Shown piece after piece: positions 3,836 to 56,018 of a DNA stretch of 64,000 bases. The stretch is from Kordiimonas sp. (GTDB lineage Bacteria > Pseudomonadota > Alphaproteobacteria > Sphingomonadales > Emcibacteraceae). Both the position numbers and the translations under genes were made by a program. How positions within the stretch are numbered: position 1 is the stretch's first letter; the number at the start of each line of letters is the position of its first letter. The notes beneath the pieces are model-generated. The model worked only from the letters and a program-made list of their open reading frames with translations, made no database searches and was not told the DNA's origin. The stretch is from contig PADB01000010.1 of NCBI GenBank assembly GCA_002700365.1, forward strand, positions 668,504 to 732,503, written 5' to 3'.

Positions 3836-4636
3836 CTAGCGGAACACATCTTTCAATGCCCCCCCAAGGCCTTTACCAACCTTATCAATACCGCCTTGCA
3901 AGGCATCACCCGCGCCCGCGCCGCCATCTTGCAACAGCTTACCCGCATCCCCCAGGCCATCGCCGACCAGGCCCTTGATCTGACTGGTGCTCAGCACTTT
4001 TGTCACTGACGTCATCACAGCCCCGAGAATTTGTTGCGCGGCTTCTGCTGCGGTCGCCCCACCGCTTTTGCGGCCAATGTCCTGCAGATGAAGATCTGGC
4101 AGTGTTAATCCAGCCCCTTTACCGCCCAAGGCCGACATTTTCACATCCACTTTGGTATCATTGATATAAACATGATCGATAATAACTTTTTTAGCCGGGG
4201 CCTGTTCTTCCGTGGCCGCTGCGCCTGTCATGGCTGCAGTCCGTTTTTCTATTTCCTTTTGTAGAACCTGAATGTTTGAACCGCCCTTACCCAGCTCATA
4301 CACCAATTCAGCTGCATCAATATTGATACTTTCGATATGAATAACATCCGAAAACAAGGAAGAAACATCCAGTTCCATCGCGGCCTTTCCAATTTTGAAG
4401 GCATGATCGGATTTGAACCCTTCCGGGTTGCCGATCACTAAACCCTCCAGCGCGGCACTGCCCCCGAGTAGGGAAACATCTGCAGCTTTCAGGTCAACGC
4501 GACTACCCGTGACCTGCGGCCCGCCTTTGACAACGGCTTGCTGAATAATGGTTCCTGATTGTCCCGCGACCACGGCACCCACAATCACCAAGGCGACAAT
4601 AATTACGCCCAGAATAATCAAAAACTTTTTCATCAT
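3836..4636 (-). CDS. Periplasmic AsmA/DUF748-like protein
   Basis: A 266-residue protein with one N-terminal membrane anchor (residues about 4-24) and a beta-rich body with AsmA/DUF748 features: a VDLKAADVSLLGGSAALEGLVIGNPEGF segment resembles the repeated strands of that superfamily, whose larger members bridge the periplasm or shape the outer membrane. The C-terminal 60 residues are Gly-rich (DGLGDAGKLLQDGGAGAGDALQGG in two short blocks) and probably flexible. The first two codons are both ATG; GGGGAAG stands directly before them and suits the second better. A terminator follows. The exact role is unknown. Confidence 0.7.
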   Translation of the reverse strand: MMKKFLIILGVIIVALVIVGAVVAGQSGTIIQQAVVKGGPQVTGSRVDLKAADVSLLGGSAALEGLVIGNPEGFKSDHAFKIGKAAMELDVSSLFSDVIHIESINIDAAELVYELGKGGSNIQVLQKEIEKRTAAMTGAAATEEQAPAKKVIIDHVYINDTKVDVKMSALGGKGAGLTLPDLHLQDIGRKSGGATAAEAAQQILGAVMTSVTKVLSTSQIKGLVGDGLGDAGKLLQDGGAGAGDALQGGIDKVGKGLGGALKDVFR

Positions 4637-4800: not shown

Positions 4801-5211
4801 CTATCTACTACGGCCGCGCAGTTTCTCCAGACTTCTTAGCCCCCCCAGACCCAGCATCGCCATCACCAGTTCCAACAGATGATCCGTCATAATCATGGGA
4901 ACATCTATGGCCAAACGCCCGACGGCAATAATCCATTGCGCTACAGGATGACCAACAAAGGCCCAGAACAACCCGATACCACACACCCAACCTATAAATG
5001 GTCGCCACCCGGCGACAAAAACTGACCGGTGACTGGCCTCTATCTTTGTAATCTCCGCCTGGAGGATCGTCGGATGCTGGCGAATTTTTTCCATGATAGC
5101 CGCCGCTTGTGCCCGCTCACTGTCGGACGTGAATAATTGGTCAAAAACCGCCCCTAACGCCGAAACCGCATCAATGGCAGGGCCACCTATAACCCGTGAT
5201 AATAAACCCAT
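4801..5211 (-). CDS. GTA-type holin (3TM holin, PF11351-like)
   Basis: A 136-residue small membrane protein with three hydrophobic segments: WRPFIGWVCGIGLFWAFV, a middle AQWIIAVGRLAIDVPMIM segment, and LLELVMAMLGLGGL. The arginine-tryptophan entry to the first segment (GWRPFIGW) is typical of the 3TM holin family first described for gene transfer agent release. Such holins form lesions in the inner membrane that let an endolysin reach the cell wall. The start is taken at the ATG after GGGAG, 4 bp past the stop of the endolysin gene; a longer in-frame reading would overlap that gene wholly and is not used. Order in transcription: DUF6456-like, endolysin, holin. Confidence 0.78.
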   Translation of the reverse strand: MGLLSRVIGGPAIDAVSALGAVFDQLFTSDSERAQAAAIMEKIRQHPTILQAEITKIEASHRSVFVAGWRPFIGWVCGIGLFWAFVGHPVAQWIIAVGRLAIDVPMIMTDHLLELVMAMLGLGGLRSLEKLRGRSR

Positions 5212-5215
5212 GATC

Positions 5216-5695
5216 TCATTCTCCCGCCTGAGCATTTCCCATCTGAACATTTTCCGGTGCCCAAGGTCGATATGTCTGTCCATCAAACTGCAATATCTGC
5301 TGTCTATTCTGACCCGGCACATAAGAACAATGAATCCAGCCTTGCTTCTTTTCAGGATATTCAAGGATTAACTGGTCAAAAACCAAATGCTGACTGATCC
5401 AGCCGGCCACTTCATGCGCTGCCACCCCCGGCACGCGGAAGTCTACAGCTTGTCCTTGGCAATGCTGTGAATATAAACTCCCCCCCAGATAACGGTTTAG
5501 ACGCGGCGACCTGTAGCCACTACTGGGGGAAAAGGGTTGTTTGAACGCCGCACGCACAGGTTCCAGTATATGCGTTGCCACATGGCCTAAAGCCTTAATA
5601 TGCACTGGCCGGGGTTGGTTCGGCCAGCCCTTACGCAGGGCTGTCATGCTCCATGTCATTTCTGCCAGAGTAAAATGTGGGGAAAGCTGCGTCAT
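5216..5695 (-). CDS. M15-type peptidase, probable endolysin
   Basis: A 159-residue protein without a signal peptide, matching the Peptidase_M15_3 family of D-Ala-D-Ala type metallopeptidases used as phage and GTA endolysins. Visible features: SSGYRSPRLN (residues 58-67), the zinc motif HCQGQAVDF with His78 and Asp85, and WIHCS with His122 as third ligand; Glu112 or Glu115 could be the catalytic base. The family cleaves peptide cross-links of peptidoglycan. The lack of an export signal fits release through the holin encoded 4 bp downstream. Its ATG overlaps the upstream stop codon as ATGA, implying translational coupling. Confidence 0.8.
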   Translation of the reverse strand: MTQLSPHFTLAEMTWSMTALRKGWPNQPRPVHIKALGHVATHILEPVRAAFKQPFSPSSGYRSPRLNRYLGGSLYSQHCQGQAVDFRVPGVAAHEVAGWISQHLVFDQLILEYPEKKQGWIHCSYVPGQNRQQILQFDGQTYRPWAPENVQMGNAQAGE

Positions 5696-6546
5696 TTTAT
5701 GCCACGACCCTGTCGATGTTGAAGAGCCCGGCGTAATGCACAATATAATTCCAGACCATCATAAAGATGGCTTTTTGCCCATCCCTTACGATGTCGCCAT
5801 TCCCGGTCTACCTGTGACAATGGCCGCTCGTCGACCAACATTTCCAATAAAGGGGTAAGCAACATGCCTTCCCGCTTTAACGCCTGCACCCATTTATCAT
5901 AGGCCTGTTTCAATAAAATATCGTGATCAAATTCCCCCTGCGGGGTCGTCCGCCCCCCTTGTACAATTATACGATCCGGGCGTGAAACCCGCATACTGAC
6001 ATCTTCGGTAATTGTTTGAAAAGCACGGACAATATCCCGGGCCGCCCCTATATGTTCCTGACGCAGATCCCCGCGCGCCAATAACCCTTTTAATAAATCT
6101 GTGCGGCGTGAACGTTGCCGTACCCCGGTTCTCGACCCGGCAACCTTGTGCTCATTCGTATTTTTATGACACCTGGCCCGCTTTTTAGTGGAATGCCCCC
6201 GCGATGTGACTGCAATAATGCGCCCATCATCATTTGCCGCATCCTTGTCCCCCGCCCGTGGCCCCTCACCTGCATTGTGGTGCTTCCTTTGCCGCGCTAC
6301 TATTGCGGACGCGGCCTCCTGCTCATCTCTTTTGTCGCTTTCGGTGATGTTCCCTGATGTGATCTGCGATATTGGCGCAGCACTTCCCCCTTTAACCGCC
6401 CCTTGAGCTGCCCGTTGAGCTGTCCGTTGAGCTGTCCGTTGAGCTGTCCGTTGAGCTGTCCGTTGAGCTGTCCCTGTAACCGCATGAAAAACTTTGCCCG
6501 TAACAACAGTCTTTTGTGACGTTCTGTGTTGCATAATGTGTGTCAT
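5692..6546 (-). CDS. Basic protein with TAQR repeats and DUF6456-like C-terminus
   Basis: A 284-residue protein heading the lysis cassette. Residues about 25-46 are a run of TAQR tetrapeptides encoded by a 12-bp tandem repeat, followed by a low-complexity basic stretch rich in Arg, Lys and Asp (to about residue 160). The last 120 residues (YDKWVQALKREGMLLTPLLE; LSQVDREWRHRKGWAKSHLY) resemble DUF6456, an alphaproteobacterial domain of unknown function found with helix-turn-helix proteins; I hold this match at moderate confidence. AAAGGGGG abuts the first ATG and is 12 nt before a second (residue 5), so either start is possible. Its stop overlaps the endolysin ATG. A DNA-binding role is an inference from charge only. 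Confidence 0.6.
   Translation of the reverse strand: MTHIMQHRTSQKTVVTGKVFHAVTGTAQRTAQRTAQRTAQRTAQRAAQGAVKGGSAAPISQITSGNITESDKRDEQEAASAIVARQRKHHNAGEGPRAGDKDAANDDGRIIAVTSRGHSTKKRARCHKNTNEHKVAGSRTGVRQRSRRTDLLKGLLARGDLRQEHIGAARDIVRAFQTITEDVSMRVSRPDRIIVQGGRTTPQGEFDHDILLKQAYDKWVQALKREGMLLTPLLEMLVDERPLSQVDREWRHRKGWAKSHLYDGLELYCALRRALQHRQGRGIK
6402..6473. repeat. 12-bp tandem repeat, five perfect units plus one diverged
   Basis: The unit GTTGAGCTGTCC occurs five times without a mismatch at 6414-6473, preceded by a diverged copy (CTTGAGCTGCCC, 6402-6413). Each unit encodes TAQR on the minus strand, and because 12 is divisible by three, copy-number change would keep the reading frame. This is a typical slippage-prone minisatellite. 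Confidence 0.95.
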
Positions 6547-6560
6547 CCCCCTTTTGAATT

Positions 6561-6591
6561 CCTATTATCGCCTATTATAGGCATATATAGG
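6561..6591. promoter_or_regulatory. Operator-like element before the lysis cassette
   Basis: Three successive 10-bp blocks (CCTATTATCG, CCTATTATAG, GCATATATAG) lie 15-44 bp upstream of the cassette's first ATG. Within them GCCTAT-T-ATAGGC (6570-6582) is a perfect inverted repeat with a single central base. The 10-bp spacing puts the blocks on one face of the helix. A repressor or activator site is inferred; the protein is unknown. Confidence 0.45.
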
Positions 6592-6820
6592 AACAAAACA
6601 AGAACAAATGACCCGTATGATATTACCTATGCTTTTCTGCTACATAGTTGCACCGCCTCATAATCACGATATACTGTGCCTCATTGCATATCTTCCGGCC
6701 CTACAGCGTGGCAGGACATGCAAGTCGAGTTCATCAAAAACGGCGTGGTCACAATATGCCATCTGAAAAAAGAACTGCCCATACTGCCGTTTAACCCTAT
6801 TGATTCTGGAAAGATAACGC

Positions 6821-7879
6821 ATGTCAGCCCTCGCCTATGCCAGTAGTTTTGGAATTGCGGCTCTTTCGGTTCTTGTTCTGGTTCTGGGCCGCGATATGCT
6901 TGTGCCGCTGGCTATTGCCATTGTCATCTGGTACTTAATCAATGCTCTTTCCGATGCACTCCGTAAAATTTCTATTTCCGGTCGCAGACTTCCCGCTAAA
7001 TTGAGTTTTGCGCTTTCTTTGGTCATAATGATCATTGCACTGGCCGGCATTTCCGAAATGATTAGCCAGAATATTGCCGCCGTACGTGATGCGGCCCCAA
7101 CGTATCAGGAAAATTTTCAAGTCCTGGCCCATCGTCTATTGCTTTTTCTGGGATTTGATAGCCAGCTGAATTTCGCACAACTCATTGACCAAATAGATGT
7201 AGCCCCCTTTATCACCAATATCGCTAGCACCTTAGCCAATATCGCGGGCAATGCAGGCCTGATTATCATTTACGTGCTGTTTCTTATTTTGGAACAAAAC
7301 AGTTTTGACCATAAATTACAGGCCCTGTTCCCAGATTCTGAACGCCTGAAAACCGTCCGTGAATTATTGGCCGATATTGGCGAAAAAATCGAAGTCTATG
7401 TCTGGATCAAAACACTCGTCAGCATTCTTACCGGCGTTGTGGCCTACACTATTTTGAAAATGGTAGGGGTGGATTATGCCAGTTTCTGGGCCTTTATCAC
7501 ATTTCTATTGAATTTTATTCCGACTGTGGGATCCATGTTGGCGGTTATTTTCCCCGCCATACTATCATTGGTGCAGTTTGACACTTTAACACCGTTTTTT
7601 ATCGTTCTTATCTGCCTCAGCAGTATCCAATTCGTGATCGGCAATGTGTTAGAGCCCCGTCTGATGGGTAACTCCCTAAACCTCAGCCCGCTGGTCGTTA
7701 TTCTGTCATTGGTTTTATGGGGGAATATATGGGGAATAGTAGGAATGTTTCTGAGCGTTCCGGTGACCGTGATACTGATGATCGTAATGGCCCATTTCCC
7801 GCGCACACGGCCGTTTGCCATCCTGTTATCTCAGGACGGTCTGGTCAAATCCATTCCCATCGATCAGGTGAAAAAGTAA
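6821..7879 (+). CDS. AI-2E family transporter (PerM-type)
   Basis: A 352-residue polytopic inner-membrane protein with about seven or eight hydrophobic segments. It shows the family's layout: two N-terminal helices (LSVLVLVLGRDMLVPLAIAI), a soluble central loop, and the C-terminal signature region (FLLNFIPTVGSMLAVIFPAIL; NVLEPRLMGNSLNLSPLVVILSL, given here as two pieces of one block; WGIVGMFLSVPVTVILMI). Members export small molecules or sodium; the AI-2 export role was shown for TqsA only and should not be assumed. GGAAAG precedes the ATG by 8 nt. The gene stands between the lysis cassette and a convergent ArsR regulator. Confidence 0.88.
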   Translation: MSALAYASSFGIAALSVLVLVLGRDMLVPLAIAIVIWYLINALSDALRKISISGRRLPAKLSFALSLVIMIIALAGISEMISQNIAAVRDAAPTYQENFQVLAHRLLLFLGFDSQLNFAQLIDQIDVAPFITNIASTLANIAGNAGLIIIYVLFLILEQNSFDHKLQALFPDSERLKTVRELLADIGEKIEVYVWIKTLVSILTGVVAYTILKMVGVDYASFWAFITFLLNFIPTVGSMLAVIFPAILSLVQFDTLTPFFIVLICLSSIQFVIGNVLEPRLMGNSLNLSPLVVILSLVLWGNIWGIVGMFLSVPVTVILMIVMAHFPRTRPFAILLSQDGLVKSIPIDQVKK

Positions 7880-52609: not shown

Positions 52610-53818
52610 ATGATGGCCACAGCCTATATATATGACGCCTTACGCAGTCCCCGCGGACGCGGTAAATCTGACGGTGCTTTACATAGCGTCACGCCCATCG
52701 ACCTACTGACGCAAACCTTTACCGCCGTAAAAGAACGCAATCACCTGCTTGAAGACTGTCTGGATGATGTTATCACTGGCTGCGTCACAGGCGTGGGGGA
52801 GCAGGGCGGAAATATGGGACGTTTTGCCGCCTTAAAAGCCGGGCTAGGGCAATCCGTTCCCGGTGTTCACATTAACCGTTTCTGCGCATCCGGCCTGGTC
52901 GCGGTAAACTATGCTGCCTGTCGTATCATTGCGGATATGGCTGATTTAATCATCGCGGCTGGCGTGGAATCCATGTCGCGGGTGCCCATGGGATATGACG
53001 GGGCGGCCGCCTTTTCCGACCCCGCTGTTGCCGGACCGCTGGGTTTCGTCCCCCAAGGCATCAGTGCCGACCTTATTGCCACGAAATACGGGTTTACCCG
53101 TGAACAATGTGATGCGCTGGCGGTAGAAAGTCAGAAGCGTGCGAAAGCCGCATGGGACGCTGGTTATTTTGAAAAATCCATTGTGCCTATAAAGGATCCC
53201 CTTAACCTGACCCTTCTGGATCACGATGAACATATGCGCCCTGACGTCACTTTAGACAGCCTTAGTGCGCTAAAGCCGTCTTTTGTTGAAATGGGCGCAT
53301 TGGGATTTGACAGTGTCGCTCTACAAAAATATCCAGACCTAGAATTTATCAACCATATTCACCACCCAGGCAATGCCAGCGGCATCGTCGACGGGGCCGC
53401 AGCCCTATTGATAGGAAACCGTGAAAGCGGCGACAAACTCGGCCTTACCCCGCGGGCGCGGATCACCAGTTTCGCCGATCATGGCTCCGAACCGACCATC
53501 ATGTTAACAGGGCCTGCGGAAGCCGCAAAAAAGGCATTGGCCCGTGCCAATATGACAAAAAATGACATTGATGTCTGGGAAGTGAACGAAGCCTTTTCAT
53601 CCGTTGTCCTGCGTTTCCTTCAGGAAATGGACATGGATGCAAGCCAGGTCAATGTCAACGGCGGCGCCATTGCCATGGGGCATCCTCTCGGGGCTACGGG
53701 GGCCATTATTCTGGGTACCGCACTGGATGAAATGGAACGATGCGGGGCATCAACTGCCCTTGCCACCCTTTGTGTTGCGGGTGGCATGGCCACCGCGACC
53801 ATTATTGAACGCGTCTAA
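52610..53818 (+). CDS. Acetyl-CoA acyltransferase (thiolase, FadA-like)
   Basis: A 402-residue thiolase. The nucleophilic Cys is in [15 protein letters not shown], the catalytic His in [18 protein letters not shown] and the second Cys in [14 protein letters not shown]. It splits 3-ketoacyl-CoA to acetyl-CoA and a shortened acyl-CoA, last step of each beta-oxidation round. Two ATG codons are adjacent at the start; AAAGA is the only purine run upstream. The gene sits between the acyl-CoA dehydrogenase (65 bp before) and the FadB-like gene (22 bp after), consistent with one operon. Confidence 0.94.
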
Positions 53819-53840
53819 GACGGCGGGGAAAGGACACAAC

Positions 53841-56018
53841 ATGACAATGACGGCCCCTAAAACCCAAAACTGGCGTCAGGATATTGATGCAGACGGCCTG
53901 ATGACTCTTATTCTGGATATTCCCGGCAAATCCATGAACGTGCTGAACCAGCAGGCCCTGGATGAATTAGACCAAATTATTCAATTTATCACCACGGAAC
54001 AATCCGTCCGCGGGGTCGTCCTGACAGCCGAAAAAGAAAGCGGCTTTGCCGCCGGGGCGGATCTAAACATGCTGCTAACACTGGGCCAACTGCTGAAAAA
54101 CAGCACTATGGAGGACGTTTTTCAACATGCCTTTCGCATGAATAAAATGTTCCGCACGCTGGAAACATGCGGAAAGCCTGTAGCCTGCGCCCTGAACGGC
54201 CTGACATTGGGCGGTGGACTGGAAATGGCCCTGGCCTGTCACTACCGGGTTGTCGCCGATAACCCCAAAATAAAACTGGGGTTGCCAGAAGTTCAGTTAG
54301 GCCTCCTGCCCGGGGCGGGAGGAACGCAACGGCTACCGCGCATTATGGGCGTGCAGATGGCCCTGACCTATTTATTACAGGGCCGTAATATGTCTCCGCA
54401 GGAAGCCTTGGGTTTTGGCGTAATCCATAAAATAGCCCCGCGTGAAGATATTGTGCGTGTGGCGAAAGCATGGATTCTGGACGGCGGCAGTCCTATACAG
54501 CCGTGGGATCAGAAAAAATTTAAAATTCCCGGCGGACAAGGGGCCTTTGACCCCAAAATCGTGCAAACCTTTGCCGGGGCAACGGCCATGGTTTCCAAAG
54601 AAACCAAAGGTAACTACCCTGCAGCCACAGACATTCTCTCCTGTGTTTATGAAGGCCACCAATTACCTATGGATCAGGCCATCGCCCTGGAAAGCAAGTA
54701 CTTCGTCAAACAGATTGCCGGGCCGGTCGCGCAAAATATGATCCGGACCCTATTTGTGAATAAACAAAAGGCCGATAAACTGGCCCATCGCCCTGAAAAA
54801 ATCCCCGCCACCCCCTGTCAGAAGCTCGGCATACTCGGGGCCGGTATGATGGGAGCCGGTATTGCATATGTTGCAGCCCGGGCAGGGATCGATTGTATCC
54901 TGCTCGACCAAACCATTGAAGCGGCAGAAAAGGGCAAAGCGTATAGTGTAAATCTTCTGGACAAGGCCGTAGCGCGTAAAAAAACCACAACAGAGAAAGC
55001 GGATGCGCTGCTCGCGCGTATACACCCCACAACAGCATATGAAGACCTGGAAGGATGTGACCTCGTCATCGAAGCTGTATTTGAAGATATTGACATCAAA
55101 GCAAATGTAACCGCCAGGACAGAGGCCGTTATTTCGCAAAATGCGATCTTTGCCTCTAACACCTCAACACTACCGATCACCGGTTTGGCCCGGGCCAGCC
55201 AACGGCCGGATCAATTTATCGGTCTGCATTTTTTCTCCCCCGTTGATAAAATGCCCCTGGTGGAAATTATTATGGGTAAGCAAACCAGCCCGGTCGCCCT
55301 TGCCAAGGCCATGGATTTTGTAAAACAGCTGCGCAAAACACCTATTGTTGTCAATGACAGTCGCGGCTTCTACACCACCCGTGCCTTTATGACATACCCC
55401 CTGGAAGCCTTCACCATGCTCGCCGAAGGTATTAACCCCGCCCTCATTGAAAACTGTGGCCTCTATGCCGGTATGGCCGTAGGACCCTTTGCGGTTGCGG
55501 ATGAAGTGAGCCTGGAACTATGCCATCATATTCTGGAGGCAACCCGTAAAGAACTTGGGGAAGCCTACCGGCCGGGGCCTGTAGATGATGTCATAAACTG
55601 TCTCTATGTCACCCATGGCCGTAAGGGAAAGAAAAATAATAAAGGCTTTTATGAATACCCCGCGGATGGACACAAATATTTATGGCCTGATCTCAGCCAG
55701 CATTTCCCTTTGGCAGACCAACAGCCCACCGCTGATGAAGTTCGTAAACGCCTGCTGTATCGTCAGACCTTAGAGGTTATCCGCTGTCTCGAAGAAGATG
55801 TAGTGACGCGACCCGAAGATGCAGATATAGGGGCCATCTTGGGCTGGGGCTTTGCTCCCTGGACCGGCGGCCCCCTCAGCATGGCAGATAATATAGGACT
55901 GGACAGATTTGTCGCGGAATGTGACCGCATGACAGCACTTTACGGTCCTGCCTATTCCCCGACACAACGACTGCGCGACATGGCAAAAGCCGGACAAACC
56001 TATTATCCGACCCCCTAA
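53841..56018 (+). CDS. FadB/FadJ-like enoyl-CoA hydratase / 3-hydroxyacyl-CoA dehydrogenase
   Basis: A 725-residue bifunctional enzyme. Residues about 1-190 are a crotonase fold with CALNGLTLGGGLEMALACHYRV (oxyanion hole) and GLLPGAGGTQRLPR (catalytic Glu region). Residues about 330-520 form the NAD-binding domain (LGILGAGMMGAGIAYVAARAG; NTSTLPITGLA; IGLHFFSPVDKMPLVEII with catalytic His) and the rest is the double C-terminal dehydrogenase domain. It hydrates enoyl-CoA and oxidises the hydroxyacyl-CoA. GGGGAAAGG precedes the ATG at 53841; a longer reading overlaps the thiolase gene and is discarded. Confidence 0.95.
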   Translation: MTMTAPKTQNWRQDIDADGLMTLILDIPGKSMNVLNQQALDELDQIIQFITTEQSVRGVVLTAEKESGFAAGADLNMLLTLGQLLKNSTMEDVFQHAFRMNKMFRTLETCGKPVACALNGLTLGGGLEMALACHYRVVADNPKIKLGLPEVQLGLLPGAGGTQRLPRIMGVQMALTYLLQGRNMSPQEALGFGVIHKIAPREDIVRVAKAWILDGGSPIQPWDQKKFKIPGGQGAFDPKIVQTFAGATAMVSKETKGNYPAATDILSCVYEGHQLPMDQAIALESKYFVKQIAGPVAQNMIRTLFVNKQKADKLAHRPEKIPATPCQKLGILGAGMMGAGIAYVAARAGIDCILLDQTIEAAEKGKAYSVNLLDKAVARKKTTTEKADALLARIHPTTAYEDLEGCDLVIEAVFEDIDIKANVTARTEAVISQNAIFASNTSTLPITGLARASQRPDQFIGLHFFSPVDKMPLVEIIMGKQTSPVALAKAMDFVKQLRKTPIVVNDSRGFYTTRAFMTYPLEAFTMLAEGINPALIENCGLYAGMAVGPFAVADEVSLELCHHILEATRKELGEAYRPGPVDDVINCLYVTHGRKGKKNNKGFYEYPADGHKYLWPDLSQHFPLADQQPTADEVRKRLLYRQTLEVIRCLEEDVVTRPEDADIGAILGWGFAPWTGGPLSMADNIGLDRFVAECDRMTALYGPAYSPTQRLRDMAKAGQTYYPTP

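Follow-up and report, generated by a model that had tools for sequence, protein, structure and literature searches.

What does a lysis operon release when no particle genes lie beside it? In this Kordiimonas sp. chromosome a holin gene and an endolysin gene, headed by a third gene, stand between host genes, and an earlier note had taken them for a stand-alone lysis cassette of gene transfer agent (GTA) type. Cell lysis in GTA release and its timing relative to assembly have been described for two models, the Rhodobacter holin-endolysin pair and Caulobacter LypABC. We argue that the operon probably belongs to the chromosome by vertical inheritance and served the release of an RcGTA-like GTA, whose particle it has outlived in this genome. 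In related marine bacteria it would represent the self-lysis genes accompanying a tamed-virus particle that carries DNA between cells. Coordinates without other label are positions in the window, i.e. the whole 64-kb stretch of DNA that was analysed.

Layout and chromosomal setting of the operon

Reading of the ORFs gives the following order on the minus strand: a front gene (5692..6546, 284 aa, with a C-terminal domain conserved at about residues 147-278), an M15-type endolysin gene (5216..5695, 159 aa) and a GTA-type 3TM holin gene (4801..5211, 136 aa). ATGA is common to the front-gene stop and the endolysin start, and the holin start follows the endolysin stop after four bases, GATC. In Pfam, the holin matches GTA_holin_3TM (PF11351) with E 9.2e-16 and 58.9 bits against a cut-off of 24.8, being the sole match of this family in the whole genome, and the endolysin matches Peptidase_M15_3 (PF08291) with E 3.6e-19 and 69.3 bits against a cut-off of 23.2. 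The corresponding PHROGs families are phrog_3427 and phrog_894. No hydrophobic stretch resembling a signal peptide was found at the endolysin N-terminus. The earlier description of a GTA-type 3TM holin and a signal-less M15 endolysin, linked by an ATGA overlap and a 4-bp gap, is thus confirmed.

The operon is delimited by an AsmA/DUF748-like gene downstream (3836..4636, minus strand, below the Pfam cut-off), a conserved neighbour lying outside the operon function, and by a conserved divergent gene of an AI-2E family permease (6821..7879, plus strand, PF01594). Portal, terminase and capsid genes are absent from the vicinity of the operon, as had been noted before: the nearest portal gene, which is the only one in the genome, lies about 141 kb away in a prophage, as does the sole GTA-capsid match. 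Both in the window and in regions of eight relatives the operon is flanked by host genes, and the adjoining phage genes characteristic of a prophage cassette are missing.

Using the front protein as query (E<=0.01), 196 genomes of the order were searched and matches were retrieved from 38 of them. Among 30 loci fetched, all three genes are present in the locus of the window (L005) and in 16 relatives (L006-L021), which belong to the same family, Emcibacteraceae; in one of these (L016) the holin reading frame is split in two. Expressed by genus, the complete operon occurs in 17 of 19 genomes of g1, g2, g4 and g5 and in none of g3. Eight regions were read at 20 kb (L065-L072): the holin gene is directly followed by the AsmA-like gene in all of them, and the permease gene adjoins the front gene in seven, the exception being G008, where the permease gene is located on the opposite side at a distance of about 5 kb. 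The synteny check proposed in the earlier note therefore yielded a preserved place and, since the neighbours are fixed in relatives, the operon is a set chromosomal piece, inherited by descent, and not prophage debris. Identity between this genome and relatives amounts to 63-68% for the holin, 47-58% for the endolysin and 37-42% (over about 108-147 residues) for the front gene.

Elsewhere in the order, pairs of M15 endolysin and holin occur without the front gene in families f4 (L167), f2 (L171, L179) and f5 (L169, L177, L178); a large tail-like gene adjoins the pair in L169, and a further f4 locus (L168) contains the endolysin with a holin match beside it. The endolysin that accompanies the holin in f6 and f7 is of GH108 type (L181, L174). 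The type of endolysin thus varies by family, M15 in some and GH108 in others. For L167, L171, L179, L174 and L181, the pairs are chromosomal and phage genes were not seen nearby.

The front gene and the GafA and GafZ activators

The third gene had been labelled DUF6456-like and, at the same time, regarded as a stranger to the known GTA module. GafA homologues carry DUF6456 annotation according to the available text of PMC9638019 and PMC9765227. Taken as an HMM match, the label does not hold: searches of Pfam, PHROGs and NCBIfam with the front gene give nothing at E<=1, PF20057 (DUF6456) has no match at E<=1 anywhere in the genome of the window, and none of 19 front-gene homologues yields DUF6456 among its family matches. 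Because the PF20057 cut-off is not reached, we do not count the gene as a member of DUF6456.

As a statement of remote homology, the label fares better. The hhalign comparison of the 19 homologues with ten DUF6456 proteins of the class covers 118 columns with a score of 33.8 (E 3.9e-4, probability 35.6); after column shuffling (200 alignments) the maximum is 20.2 over 16 columns, and the reversed alignment scores 12.6. When 27 real families from these loci were compared with DUF6456, the front-gene family ranked first (23.7 over 123 columns), the maximum of the other 26 being 18.3. The structural model of the C-terminal domain is helical and has a pLDDT of 76.7, with low values at residues 1-17 and 56-74. 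Ranked against solved structures, it places sigma factor region 4 on top (best 2h27_D, Z 7.1, 69 residues); sigma factors occupy 19 of the first 21 rows, chain F of 9m9e being counted as one, and Z values below 8 are middling for a helical model. A sigma region 4-like HTH, as in GafZ and the C-terminal half of GafA, is accordingly predicted by the model for the C-terminal domain. In the viral library, the first Foldseek match comes from Roseobacter phage RDJL Phi 1 and is a DUF6456 protein (prob 1.00, E 0.061), and a second DUF6456 protein occupies rank 19; neither PDB nor the viral library gave a match at E<=0.001. Taken singly, none of these lines is significant (Foldseek E>0.06).

Judged on the alignment, its controls and the structure matches together, the front gene is quite likely a remote relative of the GafA-C/GafZ activators, and hence probably no stranger to the module. 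DUF6456 matches over the cut-off are lacking in all 32 genomes of the family while the Caulobacter control is positive, which would fit the front gene filling that role. As to the partner protein GafY, a DnaA domain IV-like protein, PF08299, a family of unproven sensitivity for it, gives a single match over the cut-off in nine of nine genomes; a second copy, and with it a GafY candidate, was not found by this model.

It appears unlikely that the gene has no kinship with GafA and GafZ and that the lysis pair was instead captured by an HTH regulator of independent origin. Such an origin would agree with the missing HMM matches, with the low hhalign probability (35.6) and with the setting of homologues outside the four genera, located after phage-type replication genes or by S24-type and tail completion genes; against it, the shuffle and family controls and the viral structure match single out the DUF6456 family. 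A search of IMG/VR with the front-gene alignment returned 268 pattern matches, none of which was confirmed, and tblastn detected neither the front protein of one relative in phage records nor that of the window in plasmids.

Two further settings of front-gene homologues were observed. In L024, L025 and L032 (families f2 and f7), the homologue immediately precedes a PF11367 tail completion gene and is also adjoined by a divergent S24-type gene. In genus g3 (L073-L075), it is located between a preceding DUF1376-type gene and a following membrane protein gene; this setting is similar in three genomes, with neither a GTA terminase nor a lysis pair.

GTA clusters and promoter elements

Eight portal regions of relatives (L098-L101, L103, L104, L106, L107) contain terminase, portal, protease, capsid and tail genes in order, with phage early genes missing from the 14-20 kb judged, and are thus RcGTA-like; two further ones, L102 and L105, are prophage-like. 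In Pfam terms, the G008 cluster comprises Terminase_6, Phage_portal, Peptidase_S78, Phage_capsid, a hub protein and a non-contractile tail sheath protein with DUF2460. Its terminase has matches in 15 of the 32 family genomes, all in g2 (1/1), g5 (1/1) and g4 (13/16); g3 (0/13) and the genome of the window have none, and the three g4 genomes without a match (G104, G075, G109) are 64-83% complete. Most relatives with the operon also carry an RcGTA-like head-tail cluster, and g3, in which PF11351 matches are confined to G015 and G084, has neither. Counted by genome, the co-occurrence of operon and GTA is strong; it comprises few independent events, with one genus devoid of both.

The genome of the window itself carries a headless GTA locus. 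The G008 tail sheath protein as query located a remnant at C3:146403-146615, within ORFs spanning C3:142440-147683 on the minus strand (C3:142440-148027 with the promoter; L124:7440-13027 in genome G000). The remnant encodes a 790-aa RcGTA g15-type protein (PF13550 and PF23666 Rcc01698_C), an NlpC/P60 protein, a tape-measure-like protein of 200 aa, a protein of 120 aa and a 254-aa in-frame chimera, in which the start of the sheath protein is fused to the end of the hub protein. Tail genes of RcGTA g11-g15 type are thus present, partly deleted (PF13550, PF23666 Rcc01698_C, NlpC/P60, BR0599). The genome has no terminase, portal or capsid gene of GTA type, the sole portal and GTA-capsid matches being those in the prophage. 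Compared with TerS promoter regions of relatives, the region upstream of the remnant beats 200 of 200 first-order Markov versions in six of six comparisons. Since promoter homology and tail genes survive, an internal deletion has left the promoter and the tail half; the head half is gone. A search of this genome for a GTA structural cluster, which the earlier note had called for, therefore finds the tail part of one and lacks its terminase, portal and capsid; the genome devoid of any GTA or prophage structural genes, which would have contradicted that note, is not what we see, as both the prophage and the tail remnant are present. An assembly gap as the cause of the missing head was rejected, for the contig continues through the locus with a single N at L124:13491, inside the neighbouring gene; a wrong assembly join is possible. 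Next to the promoter of the headless locus and divergent from it lies a KAP-family NTPase gene (L124:13269-14228, PF07693).

Upstream of the operon, a presumed sigma-70 promoter was delineated from the sequence on the minus strand (6574..6602), consisting of CTTGTT, a 17-base spacer and TATAAT. Its presumed -10 hexamer (6579..6574) is overlapped by the palindrome CCTATWATAGG (6571..6581), and its presumed -35 hexamer by a LexA-type box, GTTCTTGTTTTGTTC (6591..6605, minus strand). The palindrome has one match in the window and none in 100 shuffles. Alignment of 17 operon upstream regions reveals a common block composed of the promoter-like pair and CCTATWATAGG. Perfect palindromes (spacer 0-3) are found in 14 of the 17 operon promoters, compared with 0.27% of Markov versions per region, and perfect GTTCN7GTTC in nine, compared with 0.29%; in the other eight operons, all of g4, the LexA-type box is absent or damaged.

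GTTCN7GTTC is the Caulobacter SOS box as given in Table 1 of PMC9578287. The motif at the operon promoter, a candidate LexA-regulon site, is the single one in the window, where 1.26 would be expected by chance. A second copy of the 15-mer GTTCTTGTTTTGTTC, the only other one in 534 kb of this genome, precedes a gene of a Y-family polymerase (PF00817, E 7.2e-35), the longest reading frame of which opens just before the box, with a later ATG just after it. Genes of Y-family polymerases are often under SOS control. Another LexA-type box, GTTCTGTTTATGTTC, was observed at L190:9806-9820, 289 bases before a gene whose start resembles that of mraZ.

Because the 17 promoters are related by descent, loci elsewhere provide the stronger test of the palindrome. 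In 442,263 bases from 21 loci it occurs 14 times (spacer 0-3): six times at operon promoters, six times near GTA cluster starts, and singly at the remnant of the own GTA (L124:13027) and at window position 53404. The GTA loci concerned are L098, L099, L101, L104, L106 and L107, i.e. six of eight, the position in L106 being judged from the terminase as TerS was not called; at TerS of L100 and L103 the palindrome was not found. The 21-base form of the operon element gave mixed results upstream of TerS. The numbers of mononucleotide shuffles, out of 200, that equal or exceed the observed value are 0 for G101, 1 for G060, 3 for G036, 3 for G095, 9 for G008, 20 for G051, 24 for G021 and 173 for G069, where, for lack of a called TerS, the upstream region was defined from the terminase; in four of the eight GTA upstream regions this form is not notable. 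The spacer range of 0-3 was chosen after these results, which makes the palindrome form partly post hoc. LexA-type boxes were not found at TerS promoters, the box of L098 being situated inside a gene 1.4 kb off. The palindrome at window position 53404, CCTATTGATAGG, lies 200 bases before a FadB-like gene (53604-56018) and may be due to chance.

Fate of the operon in this genome

The interpretation as a stand-alone GTA-type release operon is thus well supported for the family, on the grounds of fixed place, co-occurrence with GTA and a common palindrome; it does not extend to present use in this genome. Since its own GTA cluster lacks the head half, the operon cannot now release particles from that cluster. 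Where the particle is complete, the front protein would act like the C-terminal half of GafA, or like GafZ, on its own promoter and on that of the GTA, and DNA damage would gate the operon through LexA where the predicted box is present. The holin would then open the inner membrane and the signal-less M15 peptidase would gain access to the wall, leading to lysis of the cell and escape of the particles.

Several of these features have parallels in known systems. As the earlier note had stated, and as the available text of PMC8601537 states, the R. capsulatus endolysin (rcc00555, named putative lysozyme in PMC3423380) and holin (rcc00556) genes lie away from the structural cluster, and GafA binds and induces the promoter of this separate lysis cassette (PMC6363796). 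The genes in the window are likewise apart from the GTA structural cluster; unlike those in R. capsulatus, as far as these sources describe it, they encode an endolysin of M15 peptidase type and are headed by a regulator-like gene. Caulobacter GafZ and the C-terminal half of Rhodobacter GafA (DUF6456) have, according to the part of PMC11150451 available, a sigma-like HTH, a role in GTA control and a palindromic element at the GTA promoter. The front gene resembles them in its predicted sigma-like HTH in the C-terminal domain, in its link to GTA and in the palindromic GTA-promoter element. It differs in failing the DUF6456 HMM and in being encoded with lysis genes, not beside GafY; moreover, the palindrome has a different sequence and is also found at the promoter of the front gene itself. 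LypABC of Caulobacter (PMC13236601) are, as here, genes devoted to lysis that lie outside the GTA cluster; they are switched on with it, but the available text presents them as CARD-NLR-like proteins, with no holin or endolysin. In Dinoroseobacter shibae, LexA sites are predicted at GTA-related promoters (PMC6473078); LexA is thus tied to GTA genes in both cases, there, by the same source, at the structural cluster and here at the release operon.

Separate RcGTA holin and endolysin genes, their control by GafA and effects of LexA on GTA are therefore already in print (PMC8601537, PMC3423380, PMC6363796, PMC6473078). In the literature surveyed, which covers subscription journals sparsely, we found no report of a regulator gene inside a GTA lysis operon, of a palindrome common to release operon and GTA cluster, or of a headless GTA together with an intact release operon; the order Emcibacterales serves there as a tree root. 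An operon with its own activator-like gene and an operator-like palindrome common to the cluster offers a compact system for testing how lysis is coupled to assembly, and the headless locus represents a natural experiment on the fate of a lethal release operon after loss of the particle.

A release operon that has outlived its particle is either a relic of recent loss or has been kept for SOS-linked lysis. It is quite possible that the operon was orphaned only lately, by deletion of the GTA head half, and that its decay is yet to come. The GTA promoter and tail ORFs, still open and recognisable, and the fusion of two tail genes by in-frame deletion agree with this, whereas nothing is missing from the front gene or the promoter elements, and a lethal lysis operon of no benefit would be expected to vanish quickly.

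Alternatively, the operon may serve a job of its own, independent of GTA, namely SOS-linked altruistic or programmed lysis under its own activator, liberating DNA, public goods or a resident prophage; we regard this as possible but rather doubtful. The head genes of the particle are lost, yet the three operon genes are open and the palindrome and LexA-type box perfect. Identity to relatives, divided by identity between genera, is 0.83 for the front gene, 0.97 for the endolysin and 0.87 for the holin, and thus does not fall below that of three host genes (0.90, 0.82, 0.84). The tail remnant, however, gives similar ratios (0.82, 0.85, 0.87 and, for a small gene, 1.13; the g15-type gene could not be rated), and the gene flanking it gives 0.70. 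The operon thus displays no sign of relaxed constraint, and neither does the tail remnant; as the latter is as little decayed as the operon, loss of the head may be too recent to show. The genus of the window is represented by one genome in the collection. In its widest form, the proposal would be that the operon, uncoupled from the particle, persists as a suicide-lysis switch that stands alone, is gated by SOS and has a GafZ-like activator of its own, while across Emcibacteraceae in general operon and GTA cluster are connected through one palindromic operator, so that one operon-encoded regulator sets off particle making and lysis together; this we put forward tentatively.

It is very improbable that the three genes are simply the lysis genes of a prophage, left as a relic or acting in trans for the one at C4:512-545 kb. 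Homologues of the holin are frequent in phages (47 phage records; 34-55% identity among 15 matches listed), one of them adjoins a peptidase M15A gene in phage MEP301, and the genome does carry a prophage. The latter, however, has its own M15 gene (C4:513615-514004), and the operon occupies one chromosomal place in relatives, between host genes and without adjoining structural genes, with the same place and order so far seen in strains without any prophage. Prophage origin of the operon in this genome was rejected on account of the host-gene flanks and the fixed place in relatives. The prophage itself (C4:512000-545000; L003, L004) contains portal, capsid and tail genes, a repressor-like gene and the M15 gene mentioned above.
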